From Desulfobulbaceae bacterium (GTDB lineage: Bacteria > Desulfobacterota > Desulfobulbia > Desulfobulbales > Desulfobulbaceae), in assembly GCA_023544645.1 (NCBI GenBank), contig JAMJFO010000037.1, positions 1 to 36,140 of the forward strand: DNA of 36,140 bases. The letters are read 5' to 3'. The notes beneath the pieces were generated by a model. The model was not told where the DNA came from. It ran no database searches and was given only the letters and a program-made list of their open reading frames with translations. Position 1 is the stretch's first letter. Each line of letters begins with the position of its first letter. Made by a program: the position numbers and the translations under genes. This document shows positions 8,643 to 19,785 of the stretch, piece by piece.

Positions 8643-9563
8643 TCATTGCTGCAGCCCTTCTACTCCTTCAAGAAGGGCTCCTTCAAAATCGGTCCCCTCG
8701 ATTTTTGCCCCGTTCAGCTTTGCCCGGATAAGGTTGGCTCCCTTGAGCACGGCATTGGTCAGGTCGCTGTCCCGCAGATCCGCGCCGGGCATATTGGCGT
8801 ATGATAAATCGGCATTTTTAAGATTGGCTCCCCTGAGATCGGCGCGCCTGAGGTTGGCCTTGCTGAGATCAGCGCCTGACAGGTCGGCGCTCTGGAGATT
8901 TGCCGCGATCAAATCGGCGCCGGCAAGATTGGTATCGGCAAGATTGCAGTCCGGACAGTCCTTGGCCATCCATTTGACCGTGGACTTTAACTCTTCTTCG
9001 GTGGGAGCGCCGACGGGAGGAGTAACTCCTGCTGTCTCCGGTTCCGGCGGAGCTGTATCAGGCAATGATGGTCTCCTTGCAGTCGCTTCCCGGGTTGGGG
9101 AGTTGAGAAATTTTCTTTCTGAGCTTTTTGTATCGTGGTAGAGATTTTTTTTGTCTCCCTCAAAACGATCGGCAGTATATTCAAGCACCCCTGAGCTGTT
9201 AAACAGATAGTATTTGCTGCCATCATGGTATACGGGCAAACAGCGGAGCTTGCCGAACCACCACTCGTTCATTTTTATGCACAGCTCTCCCTGCTCCGAA
9301 ACATCCCACCGACCGCTGTCCTTTTTGTTGTATATATCCAATGCATGAACGTAGCTGGTGTCGTCAAAGTAGAGATAAATCTCAAACCTGTTGCCATGGA
9401 CAAACAGGGTGTTTCCCCGGACCAGCAGCAATATTTCCTCGGCAGAGAGTTGGCGACCGTTTTTATCCCGGATTAACTGGGTTGCCGTGGTTGGAGCGCA
9501 GGCCACCAGAAGGTGGGTCGCAAGAAGCAACAGGAACAGAGATTTGAGCAAAGAAGAAGGCAT
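8643..9563 (-). CDS. Pentapeptide-repeat lipoprotein
   Basis: A 306-residue exported protein. The N-terminus has Lys7, a hydrophobic core and a lipobox LVAC with Cys22, so it should be lipid-anchored in the cell envelope. Residues about 25-190 form a poorly characterised domain rich in Tyr, Asp and Trp; residues 160-190 are a Pro/Thr/Glu-rich linker. Residues about 200-300 are about 20 tandem pentapeptide units of the A(D/N)LXX type, for example NLAGADLIAANLQSADLSGA, which fold as a right-handed quadrilateral beta-helix. A CPDC pair just precedes the repeats. The function of envelope pentapeptide-repeat proteins is generally unknown; no enzyme motif is visible. It is upstream of dnaE on the same strand, probably by chance. 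Confidence 0.85.
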   Translation of the reverse strand: MPSSLLKSLFLLLLATHLLVACAPTTATQLIRDKNGRQLSAEEILLLVRGNTLFVHGNRFEIYLYFDDTSYVHALDIYNKKDSGRWDVSEQGELCIKMNEWWFGKLRCLPVYHDGSKYYLFNSSGVLEYTADRFEGDKKNLYHDTKSSERKFLNSPTREATARRPSLPDTAPPEPETAGVTPPVGAPTEEELKSTVKWMAKDCPDCNLADTNLAGADLIAANLQSADLSGADLSKANLRRADLRGANLKNADLSYANMPGADLRDSDLTNAVLKGANLIRAKLNGAKIEGTDFEGALLEGVEGLQQ

Positions 9564-9783: not shown

Positions 9784-10413
9784 CTACTTGTCTCCATGAC
9801 AGTTGAAGCAGAGCTGCGATCCGGCCATGGTGTCGCGGACCAGATGCGGCAGGTCAAAGCCGTTATGGGGGTCATGGCATGATGGACACTCCACCTTGCC
9901 GTTAAACATGGGCGTAGGGGGGAATGTCATAATAGCGACACTATCGACCCAAATGATAGGATGACAGGTGGTACAAGCGCTGCCCGCAGTCTGGTGATTC
10001 CAATCTATGCCCACAGGATGGTCGTCTGCAAGATTTGTCCCTACATCGGCATTTCCACCGATGGAAATGGATCCGCTCATTCCGCCGAAAGAATCAATGG
10101 ATATTGTGCCGTCGTGACAGGCCAGGCAGACTTTGGAAGCCGCTCCGGGTTGATCGGCAATAACATCCATGGTCGGGCTGCTGTACAGGGTGTAGATTGC
10201 CGTTGACATCTCGTGGTTCCACAGCGGAGCGTCTATGTTCGAATCCGCGTTATGAGGCGTATGGCATGGGAGACAGATTTCCCCCTCAGACCAGGCATGT
10301 GTGGAGAAATCATGTTCGCTTCCGGCTATCAGGCCCCATGCTCCATGGGAAGAAAACAGCAGCACAATCGCACAAATTGCCCAGCTCAAAGTCCATAACG
10401 TATAATCTTTCAC
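9784..10413 (-). CDS. Pentaheme c-type cytochrome, periplasmic
   Basis: A 209-residue protein with a hydrophobic N-terminal signal (about 7-27, ending SHGAWG) and five CxxCH heme-attachment motifs: CLPCH at 47, CLACH at 96, CTTCH at 147, CPSCH at 176 and CFNCH at 202. Two of them continue as CHTPHN and CHDPHNG, typical of the doubled-CxxCH cytochrome families of anaerobic respirers. It should act in the periplasm as an electron carrier. It is monocistronic, with no quinol oxidase or reductase gene next to it, so its partners cannot be named. The start is GTG 10413, preceded on the minus strand by a GGGGGGA Shine-Dalgarno-like run 5 nt upstream. The last heme site lies only 7 residues from the C-terminus. 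Confidence 0.9.
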   Translation of the reverse strand: MKDYTLWTLSWAICAIVLLFSSHGAWGLIAGSEHDFSTHAWSEGEICLPCHTPHNADSNIDAPLWNHEMSTAIYTLYSSPTMDVIADQPGAASKVCLACHDGTISIDSFGGMSGSISIGGNADVGTNLADDHPVGIDWNHQTAGSACTTCHPIIWVDSVAIMTFPPTPMFNGKVECPSCHDPHNGFDLPHLVRDTMAGSQLCFNCHGDK

Positions 10414-11383: not shown

Positions 11384-12703
11384 TTACTCCGCCAGGCATT
11401 GCCACATGTTCTGGTCATGTGCGGCAGTGAAAAAGGTACGCATTGCCCGGTACAGATGCCAGCCGTCCTTTGCTCCGGCCATTTCACGGATCGAGTGCAT
11501 GGCCAGGCTGGGAACGCCTATATCCAGTGTCTGGATGCCGATGGCGCCCGCCGTGATGGGGCCGATGGTTGAACCGCAGGCCAGATCGCTGCGCATGACA
11601 AATTCCTGGACCGGGATGTCGGCCTGTTCGGCCAGCACCCGGAAAAAAGAGGCTGTCCGGCCCGTTGTCGCGTATCGCTGGTTGGCATTATACTTGATGA
11701 CCGGACCCATGTTTAACCGGGGCAGGTGGTTCTTGTCGTGTTGGTCGGCAAAATTAGGGTGCACGCCATGGGCGTTATCGGTGGAGATACACAGCGAACG
11801 ATGGATGCAGCGCTGTCTTGTTTCACTGTCGGGTATCAGCCGTTCAAGGGTGGAACGGAGGAAAGGCCCCTGCGCTCCGCTGGTGGAAAGGCTGCCTACC
11901 TCTTCATGATCGTTGAGCACAATAAGCGAGTTCTGTGGTTTTTCAGCGTCAACAAGCCCCGTTGCCAGGGAAAAGCAGGAGAGCAGGTTGTCGAGGCGGG
12001 CCCCGGTTATGAACTCCTGCCCGATGCCCACGGTTGCCGCCGGCTGTGAGTCATAGAGGAATAATTCATGGTCAAGGATTTCCGCTTCCCGGATGTTATG
12101 CTCCCGGGCAAGCTGCTCCCGGACAATGGCGGCAAAATCTGGCGAATCCTCGCCGCTGTGCTGCATGACTATGGGAACAAGGTCGGTCTGTTTGTTGATT
12201 TTTTTCTGCTCATTGGCATCCCTGTTCAAATGGATTGCCAGGCTGGGGATAACGGCGACAGGGCGTTTAAAGTCGATCAGGGCGCTGCTGATGGAGGAAT
12301 CGCGGTTCCGCCAGGTCACCCTCCCGGCAATGGACAGGTCGCGGTCAAACCATGGATCAAGCAGGGCGCCGCCATAGGTCTCAACGCCCATCTGCAGCAG
12401 ACCGTGATTGACCATGTCCGGCTTCGGCTTGATTTTCAGCGCCGGGCTGTCGGTGTGCGCCCCGGCTATTCGCAGCCCGGACCCGGCGAAGTCGTCATCG
12501 GCAAGAGAGAGCAGGACCAGGCTGGAGCCGTTCCGGCGTATGAAATAAAGTCCCGGCGTCCTGGTATCCCATGATTCATTTTCATGGAGTTCCGTGAAGC
12601 CTCGGGTCATAAGAAGACGGCAGATGGAGTGCACGGCGTGAAAAACGGTCGGCGACTCCTTGAGAAAATGGAGAAGCTGCCGGATGTAGTTGTCCTGATC
12701 CAT
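11384..12703 (-). CDS. M18 family aminopeptidase (aspartyl aminopeptidase-like)
   Basis: A dizinc exopeptidase expected to release N-terminal acidic residues in the cytoplasm. The 439-residue protein carries the M18 signature series: AGAHTDSP (His83, zinc), GARLDNL (Asp, bridging), LNDHEEVGS (Glu catalytic base and Glu zinc ligand), STDNAHG (Asp) and MHSIREMAG (His near the C-terminus). Length is typical (about 420-480). The whole catalytic set is present, so it should be active. It is the first gene of a likely two-gene unit with the TIM-barrel gene. The start ATG was chosen because the following DNYIRQLLHFLKESPTVFHA matches the usual M18 N-terminal helix. Confidence 0.93.
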   Translation of the reverse strand: MDQDNYIRQLLHFLKESPTVFHAVHSICRLLMTRGFTELHENESWDTRTPGLYFIRRNGSSLVLLSLADDDFAGSGLRIAGAHTDSPALKIKPKPDMVNHGLLQMGVETYGGALLDPWFDRDLSIAGRVTWRNRDSSISSALIDFKRPVAVIPSLAIHLNRDANEQKKINKQTDLVPIVMQHSGEDSPDFAAIVREQLAREHNIREAEILDHELFLYDSQPAATVGIGQEFITGARLDNLLSCFSLATGLVDAEKPQNSLIVLNDHEEVGSLSTSGAQGPFLRSTLERLIPDSETRQRCIHRSLCISTDNAHGVHPNFADQHDKNHLPRLNMGPVIKYNANQRYATTGRTASFFRVLAEQADIPVQEFVMRSDLACGSTIGPITAGAIGIQTLDIGVPSLAMHSIREMAGAKDGWHLYRAMRTFFTAAHDQNMWQCLAE

Positions 12704-12870
12704 ATCGTTTGTTACCCTGTTGTTCCTTGTTTGATAATGCCGGTATATGCTGAGGTTTGCTGTGGCTGCTACAATACTTTTTTACCTGTTTTTTGTAAAG
12801 GATTGGTGCTGGTCGCATCAACAGAAATATGGATTCGAAAATTCAATAATGATCGGAAAGGGTGAAACAT

Positions 12871-13965
12871 ATGGCTGATGCCCCACCGCATTTTTTACTG
12901 CTGGAACCCTATTATGGAGGGTCTCATGGGGCTTTTCTTGAAGGGCTGCAAAAACATCTGCCATTCAGGTTTACCCTGGTCAGCCTGCCGGCCCGCAAAT
13001 GGAAGATGCGGATGCAGCTCGCCGCACCATGGATGGCCGGGGAAACCTGCCGCCTGGTCAAAGAAGGCGCCCAATTTGACGGTATACTCTGTTCATCATT
13101 CATTGATGTGGCAACCCTGCGCGTCCTTCTTGCCGGAGAAGGAATCTCCCTTCCGCTGGCCCTCTATTTCCACGAAAATCAGTTTGCCTACCCGAACCGG
13201 GCCAAAGGCTCTGCCGCATATCAGTTCACGGCTCTCAATTTTACCTCTGCCCTTGCCGCGGACACCATTGCCTTTAACAGCAGCTATAACCGCGAAACCT
13301 TCCTGGATGGCGTGACCGGTTACCTGAAAAAAGCCACAGACATGGACATTCTTTACCGGGTTGATGAGCTGCGGGAAAAATCTCATGTTCTGTATCCGGG
13401 GATCGATTTCAGCGGTTTTGCTCGGTCCGCCGGTCAAAGAGCAAATCCTGCGCCGGTGATTGTCTGGAACCACCGTTGGGAGCACGACAAGGACCCGGAA
13501 ACTTTTTTTACAACCCTGGCTGATCTTTCAGCCAGGGGCATTGATTTCAAGTTGATTGTCCTGGGCCAGCATTTTGCCCGCTGCCCGGAAATCTTTGCCA
13601 GGAGCAGGCAGGTGTTGCAAAAGCACATTGTTCACTTTGGCTATGCTCCCGATAAAACCGACTATATCCGGCTGTTGAACCGGGCCGACATTGTCGCGTC
13701 CACGGCACTGCATGAGTTTTTCGGCATGGCCGTGCTGGAGGCGGTTCGCTGCGGGTGCCGGCCCCTTGTTCCAGACCGGCTTTCCTACCGGGAGCTTTTT
13801 CCGTCAACCTGCCGGTACCCGGAGGGAGGTTTTGCCCGGGCAATCTCCAGGGAGCTGGACAATTATTGCCCCCTGGACAAAAAAGAAATTCTGCAGTTGA
13901 CGGATCACTGTTCCTGGCCCAACATGGCGGACAAATATACAAAGTGGCTGTTGTCCCTTCTGTAA
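12871..13965 (+). CDS. tRNA-queuosine alpha-mannosyltransferase-like glycosyltransferase
   Basis: A 364-residue GT-B fold glycosyltransferase. The N-terminus LLLEPYYGGSHGAFLEGL, followed by LPARKWKMRMQ, ALYFHENQFAYP and NFTSALAADTIAFNSSYNRETFL, is the signature of the DUF3524/QTMAN family. This family includes the enzyme that mannosylates queuosine in tRNA-Asp(QUC) in animals. The C-terminal half has the usual nucleotide-sugar domain (VWNHRWEHDKDPETFF; STALHEFFGMAVLEAVRCGCRPLVP, with the ExxxxG-type region). ATG 12871 is preceded by AAGGGTG with about 6-nt spacing; the GTG at 12862 has its purines too close. It is transcribed alone, divergent from the aminopeptidase gene. The family assignment is firm; activity on bacterial tRNA is an inference. 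Confidence 0.85.
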   Translation: MADAPPHFLLLEPYYGGSHGAFLEGLQKHLPFRFTLVSLPARKWKMRMQLAAPWMAGETCRLVKEGAQFDGILCSSFIDVATLRVLLAGEGISLPLALYFHENQFAYPNRAKGSAAYQFTALNFTSALAADTIAFNSSYNRETFLDGVTGYLKKATDMDILYRVDELREKSHVLYPGIDFSGFARSAGQRANPAPVIVWNHRWEHDKDPETFFTTLADLSARGIDFKLIVLGQHFARCPEIFARSRQVLQKHIVHFGYAPDKTDYIRLLNRADIVASTALHEFFGMAVLEAVRCGCRPLVPDRLSYRELFPSTCRYPEGGFARAISRELDNYCPLDKKEILQLTDHCSWPNMADKYTKWLLSLL

Positions 13966-14156: not shown

Positions 14157-14777
14157 ATGGCAGGAATCAGGGAACAAAAAAAGAAACAGACCAGGGAGGC
14201 TATCCTTGCGGCAGCGCTCCAGCTTTTCACCAGAAAAGGCTATGAAAATACCAGTATTGACGAACTTGCCCGCAGGGCAGGCATCGGCAAAGGCACTATA
14301 TATAGCTATTTTCAGTCAAAAAGCCAGATATTCCTGGCCTTTTGCGAAGAGCAGCTAGAATACGTCTACAATGAGCTGGCGGTAAAGTCCGACTCCCGGA
14401 CCAGCCTGATCGATCAGCTCCTGACACTGTTCATGGGCGAATTCCGGTTCATCAACCGCAACAAGGAATTCGGCCGTATCCTGATGCGCGAAACAGTATT
14501 TCCCAAAGATCTGACCGGGGCGCGGTCCAGGGAGCTTGACAACAAATATATAGACCTGCTCATGCCTTTGCTCAAAGAAGCCCAGAAGCGGGGAGAACTC
14601 AGGACGGATATTGAGTATATCCTGGTTGTCGGCCATTTTTACGCGCTGTATATCATGGCCGTTTCCGGCTGGTACATGGGGCGCCTGCTGACTGAAGAGG
14701 ATGTGTACATGGTTCTGGAATCTTTGTTTAGCCAGGCGCTGCAGGGATTGGCTCCCGGCAGGAAAGTGGAGGCGTGA
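14157..14777 (+). CDS. TetR/AcrR family transcriptional regulator
   Basis: A 206-residue repressor-type protein. Residues 11-57 are a canonical TetR N-terminal domain: REAILAAALQLFTRKGYENTS, helix-turn-helix at about 32-52 with IDELARRAGIGKGTIYSYFQSK. The C-terminal ligand-binding domain has no recognisable specificity motif. An upstream extension of the frame exists to 13755, but ATG 14157 has a perfect GGAGGTGGA ribosome binding site and gives the family N-terminus. It is first in an operon with an RND adaptor (4 bp downstream) and an RND pump, so it most likely controls efflux in response to a toxic substrate and regulates itself through the CGGTCGA sites upstream. Confidence 0.92.
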   Translation: MAGIREQKKKQTREAILAAALQLFTRKGYENTSIDELARRAGIGKGTIYSYFQSKSQIFLAFCEEQLEYVYNELAVKSDSRTSLIDQLLTLFMGEFRFINRNKEFGRILMRETVFPKDLTGARSRELDNKYIDLLMPLLKEAQKRGELRTDIEYILVVGHFYALYIMAVSGWYMGRLLTEEDVYMVLESLFSQALQGLAPGRKVEA

Positions 14778-14781
14778 ACCG

Positions 14782-15939
14782 ATGAGTGACAAAGAGAAAA
14801 ACACCAGCGGGTCAGACTCCGGAAAACCGGCCCTGCATTTTTTCTGGCGCAATCTTCCCCGCCTGGCCCTTTTGCTCACATTTCTCCTGATCATTATTCT
14901 CATGGTCATGATCAGCGGTGAGAAAAAACGGATGGAGCAGGAAAAAGCAGCGGCCAAGTCCCAGGACCGAAAACCGACAAATGTTGTCCTGCTCGAACTG
15001 AAGCCTACAGCAATGCGGGACGCTATCAACCTGCCCGGGGTCATCGAACCCTGGATCAGGCTTGAGCTCATGGCCAGGATAAGCGGGACCATTGAAGAAG
15101 TGCTCGTGCGAGAGGGAGACGTGGTCGGGAAGGGCGAGCTCCTGGCCCGGATCGAACCGGATGACTACCGCATTGCCCTTGATTCGGCCAGGGCTGCCTA
15201 TGAACTGGCCAGGGCTGACCATGAAAGGGCAAAGATCATGGTCAGTAAAAATGCCATTCCCGTCGCCGACCTCGAAAGCATGGAGGCGAGGATGATCAGC
15301 GCCCGGGCGGACATGGAAAACGCTGAACTCAGGTTGTCACGCTGTAATATCACCGCGCCCATGGCCGGGGTGGTCAGTCGGCTGGATGCCGAGGTCGGGC
15401 TTTTTCTGAGCGTCGGCGACCCGGTGGGACAGATGCTCCGGATCGACCGGGTGAAAGGCGTGGTGGGAATACCTGAGTCCGATGTCCATGCGGTTGGGAA
15501 GATATCCGAGGTGGAAATGACCATCCAGGCTCTGGATGACAGGCGGGTGACCGGCAAAAAATATTTTCTCGCTTCCGCACCGGAAAGCGTGGCCCGCGTC
15601 TACCGCCTGGAGCTGGAAATAGCCAATCCTGACGGCGCAATCCTTCCCGGCATGTTTCTGCGAGCCCATGTGGTCAAGAGGACAATTCCCAACGCTGTTG
15701 CCGTTCCCCTCTACAGTGTTATCACCCGCAACGAGGAGCAGTTTGTCTTTGTCGAACGTAACGGGGTGGCGGAAAAAAGACCGGTGACCCTCGGCATCCT
15801 CGAGAAATGGCAGATCCAGATAACCGAAGGACTTGAAGCAGGCGAAAGGGTCGTGGTCGAGGGGCATCGCGATATTGAAGACGGTCAGAAAATTGAAGTT
15901 ATCCGGGTCCTGACCGATCCTGAAAGCATGCAGTTATGA
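14782..15939 (+). CDS. RND efflux periplasmic adaptor (membrane fusion protein)
   Basis: A 385-residue inner-membrane-anchored periplasmic adaptor. A single transmembrane segment spans about 26-46 after a short cytoplasmic tail. It is followed by a lipoyl/barrel-sandwich half (GTIEEVLVREGDVVGKGELLARIEPDDY), an alpha-hairpin (about 135-180) and the second half ITAPMAGVVSRLDAEVG. Beta-barrel and membrane-proximal domains follow, with VAVPLYSVI and GERVVVEGHRDIEDGQKIEV. The protein bridges the RND pump and an outer-membrane channel; no TolC-type gene lies in this window. ATG 14782 follows GGAGG by about 10 nt. The stop overlaps the pump start by 4 bp (ATGA). Confidence 0.93.
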   Translation: MSDKEKNTSGSDSGKPALHFFWRNLPRLALLLTFLLIIILMVMISGEKKRMEQEKAAAKSQDRKPTNVVLLELKPTAMRDAINLPGVIEPWIRLELMARISGTIEEVLVREGDVVGKGELLARIEPDDYRIALDSARAAYELARADHERAKIMVSKNAIPVADLESMEARMISARADMENAELRLSRCNITAPMAGVVSRLDAEVGLFLSVGDPVGQMLRIDRVKGVVGIPESDVHAVGKISEVEMTIQALDDRRVTGKKYFLASAPESVARVYRLELEIANPDGAILPGMFLRAHVVKRTIPNAVAVPLYSVITRNEEQFVFVERNGVAEKRPVTLGILEKWQIQITEGLEAGERVVVEGHRDIEDGQKIEVIRVLTDPESMQL

Positions 15940-18900
15940 TCATCTCCGATACCGCAGTTCAGAAAAGCATTTCCGTCCTGGTGCTGGGCGTGCTGATCCT
16001 GGTGTTCGGATCGTACTGCTATTCCGTTCTGCCGCGCGAAAGCGAACCGGACATCACCATTCCCAATGTTTTTGTTTCCACCAATTATCGGGGTGTTTCC
16101 TCTGCCGATATTGAAACGGCGGTCACGGTTGAGATTGAAAAGAAACTCAAGGGGCTGGATGGGCTGAAAAAAATCCAGTCGGTCAGCTCCGAGGGAATTT
16201 CCTCCATCAATATTGAATTCGTCACCGGGGTCGATATCGACAAAGCGCTGCAGGATGTCAAAGACAAGGTTGACGAGGCCCTGGGAGAATTACCCACTGA
16301 CCTGGACGAGGATCCCACAGTCTTTGAGGTGAATTTTTCTGAATTTCCCATTGTGGTCTTTTCTCTCTCCGGCACCTGCGGCCTGCCCTGTCTGAAAAAT
16401 ATTGCCGATGACCTGGAAGACGATATTGAAGCCATCACCGGCGTCCTGGAGGTTGATGTCACCGGCGGCCTGGAACGGGAGATCCGGGTGGAGATTTTTC
16501 CGGAAAAACTAGCCTACTACGGCCTGACCATCAACACCTTTCAGCAGGTTGTGGAGAGTGAAAACAAGAATACCTCCGGCGGCGCCATCCGCCTGGGTTC
16601 AGGGCGTTTCCTGCTCCGGGTGCCCGGGGAATTCAGCTCGCCCGATGAAATCTACGGCCTGGTCATGGGGGTGCATGAAGGTGAGCCGGTCTACCTGAAG
16701 GATGTGGCCCGGGTGGTGGACAGCTTTAAGGAGGAAACCAGCAGGTCACGCCTTGATGGACGTGAAGCCATCAACATTGCCGTCAAGAAACGGTCCGGGG
16801 AAAATATCCTGGCCATCACCAGGGAAGTGGACGAACTCATAGAAAAACGCCGCCTGACCTGGCCGGCAGGGACCGAAATCACCAAGCTCATGGACAAGGG
16901 CAAGGATATCAAACGCATGGTGGCGGACCTGGAGAACAATATCCTTTCCGGCCTGGTCCTGGTGGTCCTGGTCATCTTTTTTGCCATGGGTATTCGCAAT
17001 GCCGTTCTGGTCAGCCTGGCCATCCCTTTTTCCATGCTGCTGTCGTTCACCGTCCTCTATATCCTGGGAATAACGCTCAACATGGTGGTTCTGTTCAGCC
17101 TGACCCTGGCCCTGGGCATGCTTGTAGATAACGCTATCGTCATTGTTGAAAATATATACCGGTTTATGGAGCAGGGCGCCTCACGGGTGGAAGCGGCCAT
17201 GAAGGCCACTTCCGAAGTGGCGTATCCGGTTATCGGCTCCACGCTGACCACTCTGGCCGCTTTTTCCCCCATGCTGTTCTGGCCGGGCATAATGGGCGAA
17301 TTCATGAGCTATCTGCCGCTCACCCTGATTGTGACGCTCTCCTCCAGTCTTTTTGTTGCCCTGATTATCAATCCTGCCCTTGCTTCGCTGTTCGTCAAGG
17401 TCAAGGAGGTTAAGGCGGATAGCGGCGCTGCCGGTGGCGGGAAGAGATCGGTGGAGGAGCCGGTGGAGATCCGCGGCGTGCTCCTCACCCAATACAGCAG
17501 AACCCTGCAATTTGCCCTGAAATATCCACTGGTGATGATCGGTTCCGCTTTCTGTGTGCTGATTCTCATGTTCCAGGGATGGCTGCTGGTGGTGGGCCTG
17601 GAGAAACCGGTTGAATTTTTCCCGGAGATTGATCCCAAGGGCATGTATGTCAATGTCGAAATCCCGGAGGGTGCGGAACTGGATTATATTGACCGGGTCA
17701 TGCGGCGCGTTGAAATGGCTGTTGCCGGAGGTGATGATGTGCCGGATTCCACCGGGGGCCACACCTGGGAGCAGTACCGGCAGGCCCTTGCCCTCAAGCC
17801 CTACACTTCCGCGACAGGCGCACCATACCATGGATCCAGCGATCTCAGGAATATAACCGATATCTATATGAAGGCCGTGGTCACCGCAGGTCCCGGCAGC
17901 GCTTTTGACCCCAATGCGCCCAATCACATTGGTGTTCGTTTTCTCGACCTGGAGGAGCGGCATCGTTCTACCCATGACACGGTTGCTGATATCAGGGAAC
18001 GGGTCAAAAATATTCCGGGCGGCAAGATCACCATTGCCATGCAGGAGGAAGGCCCGCCCACCGGCGCTCCCATCAACATTGAAATTTCCGGGGATAATTT
18101 TTCCGTGCTTGGCTCTATTGCCGGGAAAATAAGGGACGTCCTGGAACAGGTCCCCCATGTCAAGGATGTCCGGGATGATTTCAACGAGGGAAAACCTTCG
18201 GTCCAGGTAGTGGTGGACCGGCAGAAAGCCGCCCTGTTCGGTCTTTCCACGGAAATGATCGGCTTTGCACTTAAAACCGCTTACAACGGGCTGGATGTTT
18301 CCACCTACCGGGAAGAGAATGAAGATTATGATATCACCGTGCAGTTGGCGGAAGCCGACCGGAAGGTGATTGATGTGCTGCATGAACTGATGATTCCAGC
18401 TCCTTCAGGAGAAATGGTGCCGCTCTCCACCATCGCCCAAGTACGATACGCCGGATCAATCGGGGACATTGTCCGCATCAATAATGAAAGGGTGGTGACG
18501 GTCAAGGCCAATGTCGATGAGAACAAAATCCCCGGACCGGTGGCCAGAGCCGAAGCTGAAAAGCTCCTCAAGGATATTGCCCTGCCGCCCGGCTACAAAA
18601 TTACATTTACCGGCGAGTTTGAGTTTCAGCAGGAGTCGGAAGATTTCCTGAGCAAGGCCTTTGTCGTTGCCCTGTTGCTCATCTTCCTCATTCTGGTCAC
18701 CATGTTCAACTCGGTGGGCCAGCCCTTTATCATCATGACCTCGGTCATCCTTTCCCTGGGAGGCGCTTTTCTCGGGCTCATGCTGTTCCGGCAGCCCTTT
18801 GGAATCATCATGACCGGGGTCGGCGTTATTTCCCTTGCCGGGGTTGTCGTGAATAACGCCATCGTTTTGCTGGATTACACCAATAAACTCCTGGAAAGGG

Positions 18901-19256
18901 GGTATGCGTTGAAGGATGCAGTCATTTCCGCCGGCGCCACCCGTTTGCGTCCGGTCATCCTCACTGCCATTACCACCATTTTGGGACTGCTGCCCATGGT
19001 GACCGGGGTGTCGTATGATTTTCATAATTGGAGCATTTCCTGGGTGAGCGAGTCCAGCCAGTGGTGGCGGTCCATGGCGGTTGTGGTTATTTTCGGCCTT
19101 GTTGTCGCCACCTTTCTCACCCTGGTGGTTGTGCCGACCCTGTACTACATGCAGAAACGCTCCGTGGAAATCATGGGGCAGTTTCATCGCCGGGTGCATG
19201 ATGAATACTGGGGCCTGTATGACAAACTGGTTAACCGGGATCCAGGTAATTCTTAA
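15936..19256 (+). CDS. RND family efflux permease
   Basis: A 1106-residue proton-driven inner-membrane pump. Both repeats of the RND fold are visible: TM1 at about 12-30, a first large periplasmic domain, TM2-6 with LALGMLVDNAIVIVENIYRF in TM4, a cytoplasmic linker (about 485-515, Gly/Lys rich), TM7 and a second periplasmic domain. A last helix bundle follows (about 905-1080, GVVSLAGVVVNNAIVLLDY-type motif). TM4 has an Asp followed by Asn (VDNA) where AcrB has two Asp, a pattern common in several RND clades. A WSISWVSESSQWW segment sits near residue 1035. It cannot be assigned to drugs, metals or lipids. It is translationally coupled to the adaptor; no outer-membrane factor follows. Confidence 0.93.
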   Translation: MIISDTAVQKSISVLVLGVLILVFGSYCYSVLPRESEPDITIPNVFVSTNYRGVSSADIETAVTVEIEKKLKGLDGLKKIQSVSSEGISSINIEFVTGVDIDKALQDVKDKVDEALGELPTDLDEDPTVFEVNFSEFPIVVFSLSGTCGLPCLKNIADDLEDDIEAITGVLEVDVTGGLEREIRVEIFPEKLAYYGLTINTFQQVVESENKNTSGGAIRLGSGRFLLRVPGEFSSPDEIYGLVMGVHEGEPVYLKDVARVVDSFKEETSRSRLDGREAINIAVKKRSGENILAITREVDELIEKRRLTWPAGTEITKLMDKGKDIKRMVADLENNILSGLVLVVLVIFFAMGIRNAVLVSLAIPFSMLLSFTVLYILGITLNMVVLFSLTLALGMLVDNAIVIVENIYRFMEQGASRVEAAMKATSEVAYPVIGSTLTTLAAFSPMLFWPGIMGEFMSYLPLTLIVTLSSSLFVALIINPALASLFVKVKEVKADSGAAGGGKRSVEEPVEIRGVLLTQYSRTLQFALKYPLVMIGSAFCVLILMFQGWLLVVGLEKPVEFFPEIDPKGMYVNVEIPEGAELDYIDRVMRRVEMAVAGGDDVPDSTGGHTWEQYRQALALKPYTSATGAPYHGSSDLRNITDIYMKAVVTAGPGSAFDPNAPNHIGVRFLDLEERHRSTHDTVADIRERVKNIPGGKITIAMQEEGPPTGAPINIEISGDNFSVLGSIAGKIRDVLEQVPHVKDVRDDFNEGKPSVQVVVDRQKAALFGLSTEMIGFALKTAYNGLDVSTYREENEDYDITVQLAEADRKVIDVLHELMIPAPSGEMVPLSTIAQVRYAGSIGDIVRINNERVVTVKANVDENKIPGPVARAEAEKLLKDIALPPGYKITFTGEFEFQQESEDFLSKAFVVALLLIFLILVTMFNSVGQPFIIMTSVILSLGGAFLGLMLFRQPFGIIMTGVGVISLAGVVVNNAIVLLDYTNKLLERGYALKDAVISAGATRLRPVILTAITTILGLLPMVTGVSYDFHNWSISWVSESSQWWRSMAVVVIFGLVVATFLTLVVVPTLYYMQKRSVEIMGQFHRRVHDEYWGLYDKLVNRDPGNS

Positions 19257-19269
19257 AAAGAGAGAGCAT

Positions 19270-19785
19270 ATGGCCGGGAATATACTACTGATTGGATTCA
19301 TGGGCGTGGGCAAGGGCAGGGTGGCCAGGGCCCTGGTCGAGAAGACCGGGATGTTTGGTGTTGACACCGATGACCTGATTGAATCCCTGGAGAACATGAA
19401 GATCCGCAAAATTTTTGCCCTGCGCGGAGAGCCCTGTTTCCGGGAGTTGGAGCAGCGCACGGCGGACTGGCTTCGCCGCAACGTCAGCAATACCATCGTG
19501 TCAACGGGAGGGGGCTTTTTCAAGGTCAGGAAGCTGGGCAGAAAGGACACGGTTGTGTACTTGCATTCCTCCCTGGAAAATATCATAGCGGCCATGAACG
19601 CGCATCCCAAGGCAAAAAAGAAGATCAGGAAGCGGCCGCTCCTGCAGGATTTGGAGTCGGTTACATCTCTCTATGAAGAGCGGCTGCCGCTGTACCGCAA
19701 AGCTGCCGATCTGGAGGTCAACGTTGAGCAGCGGGAAGCAGAAGATATTGCCGCCGAAATTATGAAAAAATTGAACCCTGGGTGA
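19270..19785 (+). CDS. Shikimate kinase-like protein with altered Walker A
   Basis: A 171-residue protein with the length and layout of shikimate kinase (AroK), which phosphorylates shikimate with ATP in chorismate synthesis. Matches are DTDD (Asp32, Asp34), FREL (Arg58), STGGG (Gly80-82) and KRPLL in the lid (Arg122). The Walker A loop, however, reads GFMGVGKGR: the Ser/Thr after Lys15 that binds Mg-ATP is Gly16, and Arg17 replaces the next Thr. The DNA shows GGC AGG, so this is not a reading slip. It may be a diverged kinase with another substrate, or an inactive relative. The frame is open upstream into the pump gene, but ATG 19270 gives the family start. It sits 13 bp after the pump stop. 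Confidence 0.75.
   Translation: MAGNILLIGFMGVGKGRVARALVEKTGMFGVDTDDLIESLENMKIRKIFALRGEPCFRELEQRTADWLRRNVSNTIVSTGGGFFKVRKLGRKDTVVYLHSSLENIIAAMNAHPKAKKKIRKRPLLQDLESVTSLYEERLPLYRKAADLEVNVEQREAEDIAAEIMKKLNPG

Follow-up and report, generated by a model that had tools for sequence, protein, structure and literature searches.

The gene at positions 12871-13965 (+) of the window, the whole 36,140-nucleotide stretch of Desulfobulbaceae DNA analysed here, encodes a protein whose domain content places it firmly in the QTMAN family of tRNA-queuosine mannosyltransferases. The best explanation of the data, to which we assign a probability of about one half (0.52), is that this protein represents a bacterial QTMAN: a GT4-type glycosyltransferase with a GT-B fold and a retaining mechanism, which would mannosylate queuosine (Q) at tRNA position 34, most likely in tRNA-Asp. 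The sugar donor, the acceptor base, the tRNA species and the activity itself are what we infer from the domains, conserved residues, predicted fold and gene content described below.

Queuosine decoration in animals and bacteria

The animal tRNA-queuosine alpha-mannosyltransferase, QTMAN or GTDC1, was reportedly described by Zhao et al. in 2023. According to the available parts of the respective papers, QTMAN is identical to GTDC1 (PMC11705514), QTMAN adds mannose to tRNA-Asp and QTGAL adds galactose to tRNA-Tyr (PMC12313893), and the linkage in mannosyl-queuosine (manQ) is alpha-allylic (PMC8654956). An alpha-linked manQ agrees with the product of a retaining enzyme that starts from GDP-alpha-mannose. 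In the portions available, a 2020 review places mannosyl- and galactosyl-queuosine in eukaryotes and not in bacteria (PMC7694415), and a 2024 review describes glutamyl-queuosine as known from bacteria alone and assigns the sugar forms to vertebrates (PMC12710937). The main text of a paper on tRNAs of V. cholerae (PMC12588516) contains no words beginning with mannos, glycosyl or manQ. Among the papers listed by a literature search over titles and the beginnings of abstracts, with partial coverage and few subscription papers, none reports manQ or the QTMAN family in bacteria.

Two other enzymes that decorate Q34 are relevant for comparison. Like the window protein in the reading proposed here, GluQRS (YadB), the glutamyl-Q tRNA-Asp synthetase, is a bacterial enzyme acting on Q34; however, it is a minimal aminoacyl-tRNA synthetase with a fold other than that of QTMAN and does not exceed its cut-off in the source genome. 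The animal tRNA-queuosine galactosyltransferase, QTGAL (B3GNTL1), also attaches a hexose to Q34 but belongs to a different glycosyltransferase family. Its product, according to the available parts of the sources, is beta-homoallyl-galQ, on tRNA-Tyr (PMC8654956, PMC12313893).

The gene and its domain architecture

The gene is a single open frame of 364 amino acids that runs from the ATG at 12871 to the stop at 13965 and is preceded by a Shine-Dalgarno-like GGAAAGGG (12855-12862, +), 8 bases ahead of the ATG; a GTG at 12862, 9 bases 5' of this ATG, is a possible alternative start. The acceptor-side domain (residues 8-178; 12892-13404, +) matches Pfam PF12038 (QTMAN_N), Pfam's tRNA-queuosine alpha-mannosyltransferase N-terminal domain, with an E-value of 6.6e-52 and 176.1 bits against a cut-off of 25, over profile positions 2-168 of 168. 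It is followed by a GT4 donor domain, PF00534 (Glycos_transf_1; residues 192-309; 13444-13797, +; E = 1.7e-13). No NCBIfam model exceeded its cut-off for the window protein. In a profile search of the source genome (153 contigs totalling 3.85 Mb, completeness 99.92%), PF12038 is single-copy. It is also matched by every member of a 46-sequence alignment that combines the window protein with 45 of the 99 available relatives.

The first-pass annotation, which had taken the protein for a relative of the animal tRNA-Q mannosyltransferase, was thus right about the family, and the four signatures that it quoted are all present: EPYYGGSH (residues 12-19), LPARKWKMRM (39-48), YFHENQFAYP (99-108) and SALAADTIAFNS (126-137). 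The likeness moreover extends beyond the N-terminus, to the GT4 donor domain with its invariant motifs.

Animal QTMAN/GTDC1 is the named family of the PF12038 domain and likewise has a GT4 domain after it. An approximate human GTDC1 sequence, used as a query, aligned with the window protein in both domains, with 49% identity in the donor domain (137 residues) and 30% in the acceptor domain (178 residues), a lead that points to likeness across both domains. The window protein differs from its animal counterpart in that it is shorter than this approximate human sequence, the domains of which flank a long insert, and in that its host is a bacterium that itself carries genes for making Q.

Conserved residues and predicted structure

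In an alignment of 100 rows (97 different sequences; 80 loci were found via peptide patterns containing the quoted motifs, which biases the conservation of these motifs among the 80), 25 positions are identical throughout: P13, H19, R47, H101, E102, N103, Q104, Y107, P108 and F135 on the acceptor side, and W199, N200, H201, R202, W203, D206, K207, F213, G232, P239, F242, Y265, S277, G285 and E290 on the donor side. Another 19 of the 100 rows, 3 of them identical to rows among the 80, were retrieved with the N-terminal Pfam domain as the sole criterion; these rows also keep the C-terminal motifs, for which this route carries no selection bias. A short frame (L018, 299 aa) was kept in the alignment, and the copy of genome G084 is absent from both alignment and tree.

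On the acceptor side, the invariant P13 and H19 lie in the EPYYGGSH loop (12904-12927, +). The basic motif LPARKWKMRM (12985-13014, +), with R47 in 100/100 rows and W44 in 97, is a proposed contact with RNA or Q, and YFHENQFAYP (13165-13194, +), in which HENQ, Y107 and P108 are found in every row, is a proposed wall of the active site; together, R47 in the basic strip and HENQ-YP may hold Q and the anticodon loop. The donor side contains WNHRWEHDK (residues 199-207; 13465-13491, +), with R202 and K207 in 100/100 rows, and we take R202-x4-K207 to be the usual GT4 donor-phosphate clamp. The E-x7-E motif from E282 to E290 (EFFGMAVLE; 13714-13740, +), presumably the usual retaining-glycosyltransferase motif of GT4 enzymes, retains E290 in 100/100 rows and E282 in 96/100, with D replacing E282 in L104-L107. 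If these residues and H101 of the acceptor domain play the roles that we assume for them in a retaining active site, the pattern of E282/E290, R202, K207 and H101 is complete in the window protein, and all of it is conserved.

An AlphaFold2 model, built from the 46-sequence alignment described above, has a mean pLDDT of 90.9 and a pTM of 0.89. With VIA-align, it superimposes over nearly its full length on retaining GT-B glycosyltransferases, including sucrose-phosphate synthase (Z 29.4, rmsd 2.9, 329 residues aligned), methylmannose polysaccharide mannosyltransferase (Z 28.9, rmsd 3.1, 322), MshA (Z 28.7, rmsd 2.9, 328) and the GDP-Man complexes of PimB' (Z 25.5, rmsd 3.2, 321) and PimA (Z 23.9, rmsd 3.7, 312); all of the best 50 entries listed bear the names of glycosyltransferases or sugar synthases. 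The GT4 enzymes PimA, PimB', MshA and BshA, to which the R-x4-K and E-x7-E pattern is common, share the GT-B fold (Z 23.9 to 28.7, 312-328 residues aligned) but have other acceptors and are 13 to 16% identical to the window protein. The protein accordingly displays the QTMAN architecture, QTMAN_N followed by a GT4-type donor domain in a GT-B fold, the fold being that of the predicted model. Such a structural match, resting on a model, shows the fold and not the substrate: many UDP-sugar enzymes are among the matches, and the Foldseek list also has UDP-GlcNAc 2-epimerases, so that the donor cannot be read from the fold. At the sequence level, phmmer found no convincing match among solved structures (best E 0.075). 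A family profile retrieved GT4 matches from the Protein Data Bank sequences with E-values from 1.9e-8 (PimA at 0.005); the best stretches fall within the donor half, and no more than two sequences, of GDP-mannose-dependent phosphatidylinositol mannosyltransferases, extended into the end of QTMAN_N.

Taken as a queuosine mannosyltransferase, the protein would bind a nucleotide sugar, most likely GDP-mannose, in its C-terminal domain via R202/K207 and E282-x7-E290, while QTMAN_N, with its basic LPARKWK-R strip and invariant HENQ-YP wall, would hold the anticodon loop and present the cyclopentene-diol of queuosine-34. Transfer of mannose with retained configuration would then yield alpha-mannosyl-queuosine, most likely in tRNA-Asp, once Tgt, QueA and QueH have completed Q.

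Distribution of the family

A search of a species genome collection yielded at least 589 pattern matches and at least 582 confirmed relatives. The best 80 of these relatives (of at least 582) are 43-60% identical to the window protein and, by record title, include 52 Thermodesulfobacteriota, 8 Nitrospirota, 5 Pseudomonadota and 5 unplaced records, with 10 more that carry 'Deltaproteobacteria' names and are read by taxonomy as Myxococcota. Cultured carriers include Desulfopila aestuarii DSM 18488 and Desulfofustis glycolicus DSM 9705 (loci L020 and L044). The gene is patchy: whole-genome searches detected it in 11/118 genomes of the phylum of the window, and it was found in 10/197 genomes of a second phylum (that of G119, a Nitrospiraceae record), in none of 14 control genomes and in 2/5 sampled genomes of the window's own family, the window's genome included. 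A quick, midpoint-rooted tree, with phylum labels after record titles, splits the 100 rows into 89, the window among them, and a divergent branch of 11, the members of which come from families f12, f18, f33 and f42 and from four second-phylum genomes. Plasmid and phage collections contained no QTMAN relative at 1e-5, and none of 5 pattern-matching stretches of viral contigs was confirmed in a single-protein scan, which reaches close relatives only; a mobile or phage origin of the gene was rejected on these grounds.

Queuosine and GDP-mannose genes in the carrier genomes

The first-pass annotation had tied its claim to a queuosine pathway in the host and to the absence of GluQRS. Both expectations hold in the source genome, but they discriminate poorly. 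The genes queA (C98:66908-67984, 415 bits), tgt (C69:9772-10854, 505 bits) and queH (C69:46217-46723, 210 bits) are all over cut-off, and no protein exceeds the GluQRS cut-off of 276.7 bits (TIGR03838), the best match being a 520-aa frame at 224.9 bits that, by its length, is a Glx-tRNA synthetase. Across the carriers of the two samples, a queA match is found in 21/21 genomes (weak in G150, 1e-27), QueH is over cut-off in 17 and QueG in exactly the other four, so that, counted among carriers only, all 21 have QueG or QueH; tgt is over cut-off in 15/15 carriers searched, among which G120 and G121 lie outside the 21. In three of these 15 genomes, G018, G084 and G108, two Tgt proteins exceed the cut-off, and the latter two genomes also have GluQRS.

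The base rates of these genes are high, and the Fisher tests are not significant; co-occurrence therefore has no power to show a dependence on Q. A queA match is found in 116/118 genomes of the phylum of the window and in 190/197 of the second phylum, without enrichment among QTMAN carriers (p 0.82 and 0.69, respectively), and QueH is over cut-off in 11/11 carriers and 90/107 non-carriers (101/118 overall; p 0.17). GluQRS is over cut-off in only 13/118 genomes of the phylum and coexists with QTMAN in 2/21 carriers, which makes its absence a poor discriminator as well. Mutual exclusion of QTMAN and GluQRS was not borne out (2/11 carriers vs 11/107 non-carriers in the phylum sample, p 0.35; 0/10 in the second sample, counted among carriers only). 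The Q and GDP-mannose genes of the carriers are consistent with, although not diagnostic of, an enzyme that takes finished Q as its substrate.

The GDP-mannose gene of the source genome, GMP_PMI (C142:30088-31479, 654 bits), is only a precondition for GDP-mannose being the donor. Counted among carriers only, GMP_PMI is over cut-off in just 14/21; the remainder comprises five partial matches (216-304 bits), a 21-bit match in G084 and no match in G249. These last two carriers, which lack a clear GMP_PMI, would fit an enzyme that glycosylates tRNA Q but differs from the vertebrate one in the sugar, the hydroxyl or the Q-tRNA that it uses, producing, for instance, glucosyl-Q or galactosyl-Q, or modifying the Q of tRNA-Asn, -His or -Tyr. 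The many UDP-sugar users among the structural neighbours point the same way, as does the presence of manQ on mosquito tRNA-Tyr, reported in the available part of the source (PMC11705514), which indicates that the tRNA varies even among animals. GluQRS and QTMAN, moreover, are found together in G084 and G108 (family f42), which is simplest if the two marks are placed on different tRNAs or hydroxyls; if both enzymes are active in one cell, they would either compete for tRNA-Asp or diverge in this manner. Nevertheless, the motifs of the donor domain are invariant in 100/100 rows, the source genome has a full GMP_PMI, and the G108 copy belongs to the divergent branch and not to that of the window. 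We consider such a different specificity unlikely for the window protein, although it is the best placed of the alternatives.

Gene neighbourhood

Neighbouring genes were compared across 93 stretches (the window and L001-L092), in 85 of which, two being the window itself, the QTMAN gene is in the ORF set; the mechanical choice of ORFs missed it in L019, L037, L046, L058, L084 and L090, L091 and L092 represent loci of queA, and this comparison excludes L098-L107. Most neighbours were named by eye, Pfam having been applied to only nine ORFs, all from the window itself. In the 85 stretches, the nameable neighbours are mostly housekeeping genes that differ between groups (a glucan-branching-type enzyme, FtsY-like and CoaBC-like proteins, an aminotransferase, shikimate kinase, M18 peptidase and others), and no Q gene was recognised next to QTMAN. 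One group has glycosyltransferase-like proteins, named by eye, a few genes upstream (clusters 17 and 19; 9/93 and 8/93 stretches). No tRNA or other RNA family was found in the 36,140-nt window.

The lack of a recognised Q gene among the neighbours would also fit a generic GT4 enzyme whose substrate is a lipid, a glycan or a small molecule; the bacterial branch would then have a different acceptor and owe its Pfam name to the animal protein. The GT4 family is very broad, and QTMAN is absent from 107/118 and 187/197 genomes of the two phyla although nearly all of them have queA. However, the acceptor-side domain is strongly conserved, with H19, R47 and HENQ-YP in 100/100 rows, the neighbours that can be named are mostly of the housekeeping kind, and each of the 21 carriers combines a queA match with QueG or QueH. 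To us, this explanation appears somewhat less probable still than glycosylation of Q with another specificity. Decay or inactivity of the gene is very improbable: its presence is patchy even within its own family, but all 364 codons are open, all 25 invariant positions are kept, and identity to relatives reaches 60% over the whole length (best 80 of at least 582).

Several features of the neighbourhood deserve separate mention. A shikimate-kinase-like gene directly follows QTMAN in 17/85 stretches. In the window, the corresponding gene (19270-19785; PF01202, 9.6e-30), the protein start of which, MAGNILLIGFMGVGKGR, is by eye common to the gene after QTMAN in L003, is located about 5.3 kb further on; the intervening region (14157-19256) encodes a TetR regulator, an HlyD-type adaptor and an AcrB-type RND pump and looks like an inserted efflux operon. 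A small cysteine-cluster protein of the CVQCGNCC type is encoded directly upstream of QTMAN in 13/85 loci (e.g. L030:5529-6008); by mechanical ORF ends, the two frames overlap in 11/13, and these genes could be translationally coupled. On the other side of the window gene, and divergent from it, lies an M18 aminopeptidase (11384-12703, -; PF02127, 1.9e-132), the cluster of which is represented in 10/93 stretches, two of the 10 being the window itself. Further away are a cytochrome with doubled CXXCH motifs (9784-10413, -; PF09699, 3.1e-11) and a protein with pentapeptide repeats (8643-9563, -; PF00805, 1.3e-31) after a start that, by eye, resembles that of a lipoprotein.

Implications

The existence of the QTMAN family in bacteria is not in itself new, given that bacterial proteins score far over the Pfam cut-off for QTMAN_N; a bacterial hexosyl-Q chemistry, if true, would be. 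At somewhat less than even odds, Thermodesulfobacteriota and Nitrospirota may themselves produce mannosyl-queuosine by means of a bacterial QTMAN, in which case manQ would not be a eukaryotic invention; the combination of GluQRS and two Tgt proteins in f42 could then mean two competing or complementary Q decorations per cell, and a bacterial family of this kind may be the source of the animal gene. With a working bacterial QTMAN, bacteria would join animals in having this wobble modification and would offer simple hosts for studying the effect of the Q sugar on decoding, as well as QTMAN proteins for structural work, the best stretches matched by the family profile among Protein Data Bank sequences being those of the donor half.
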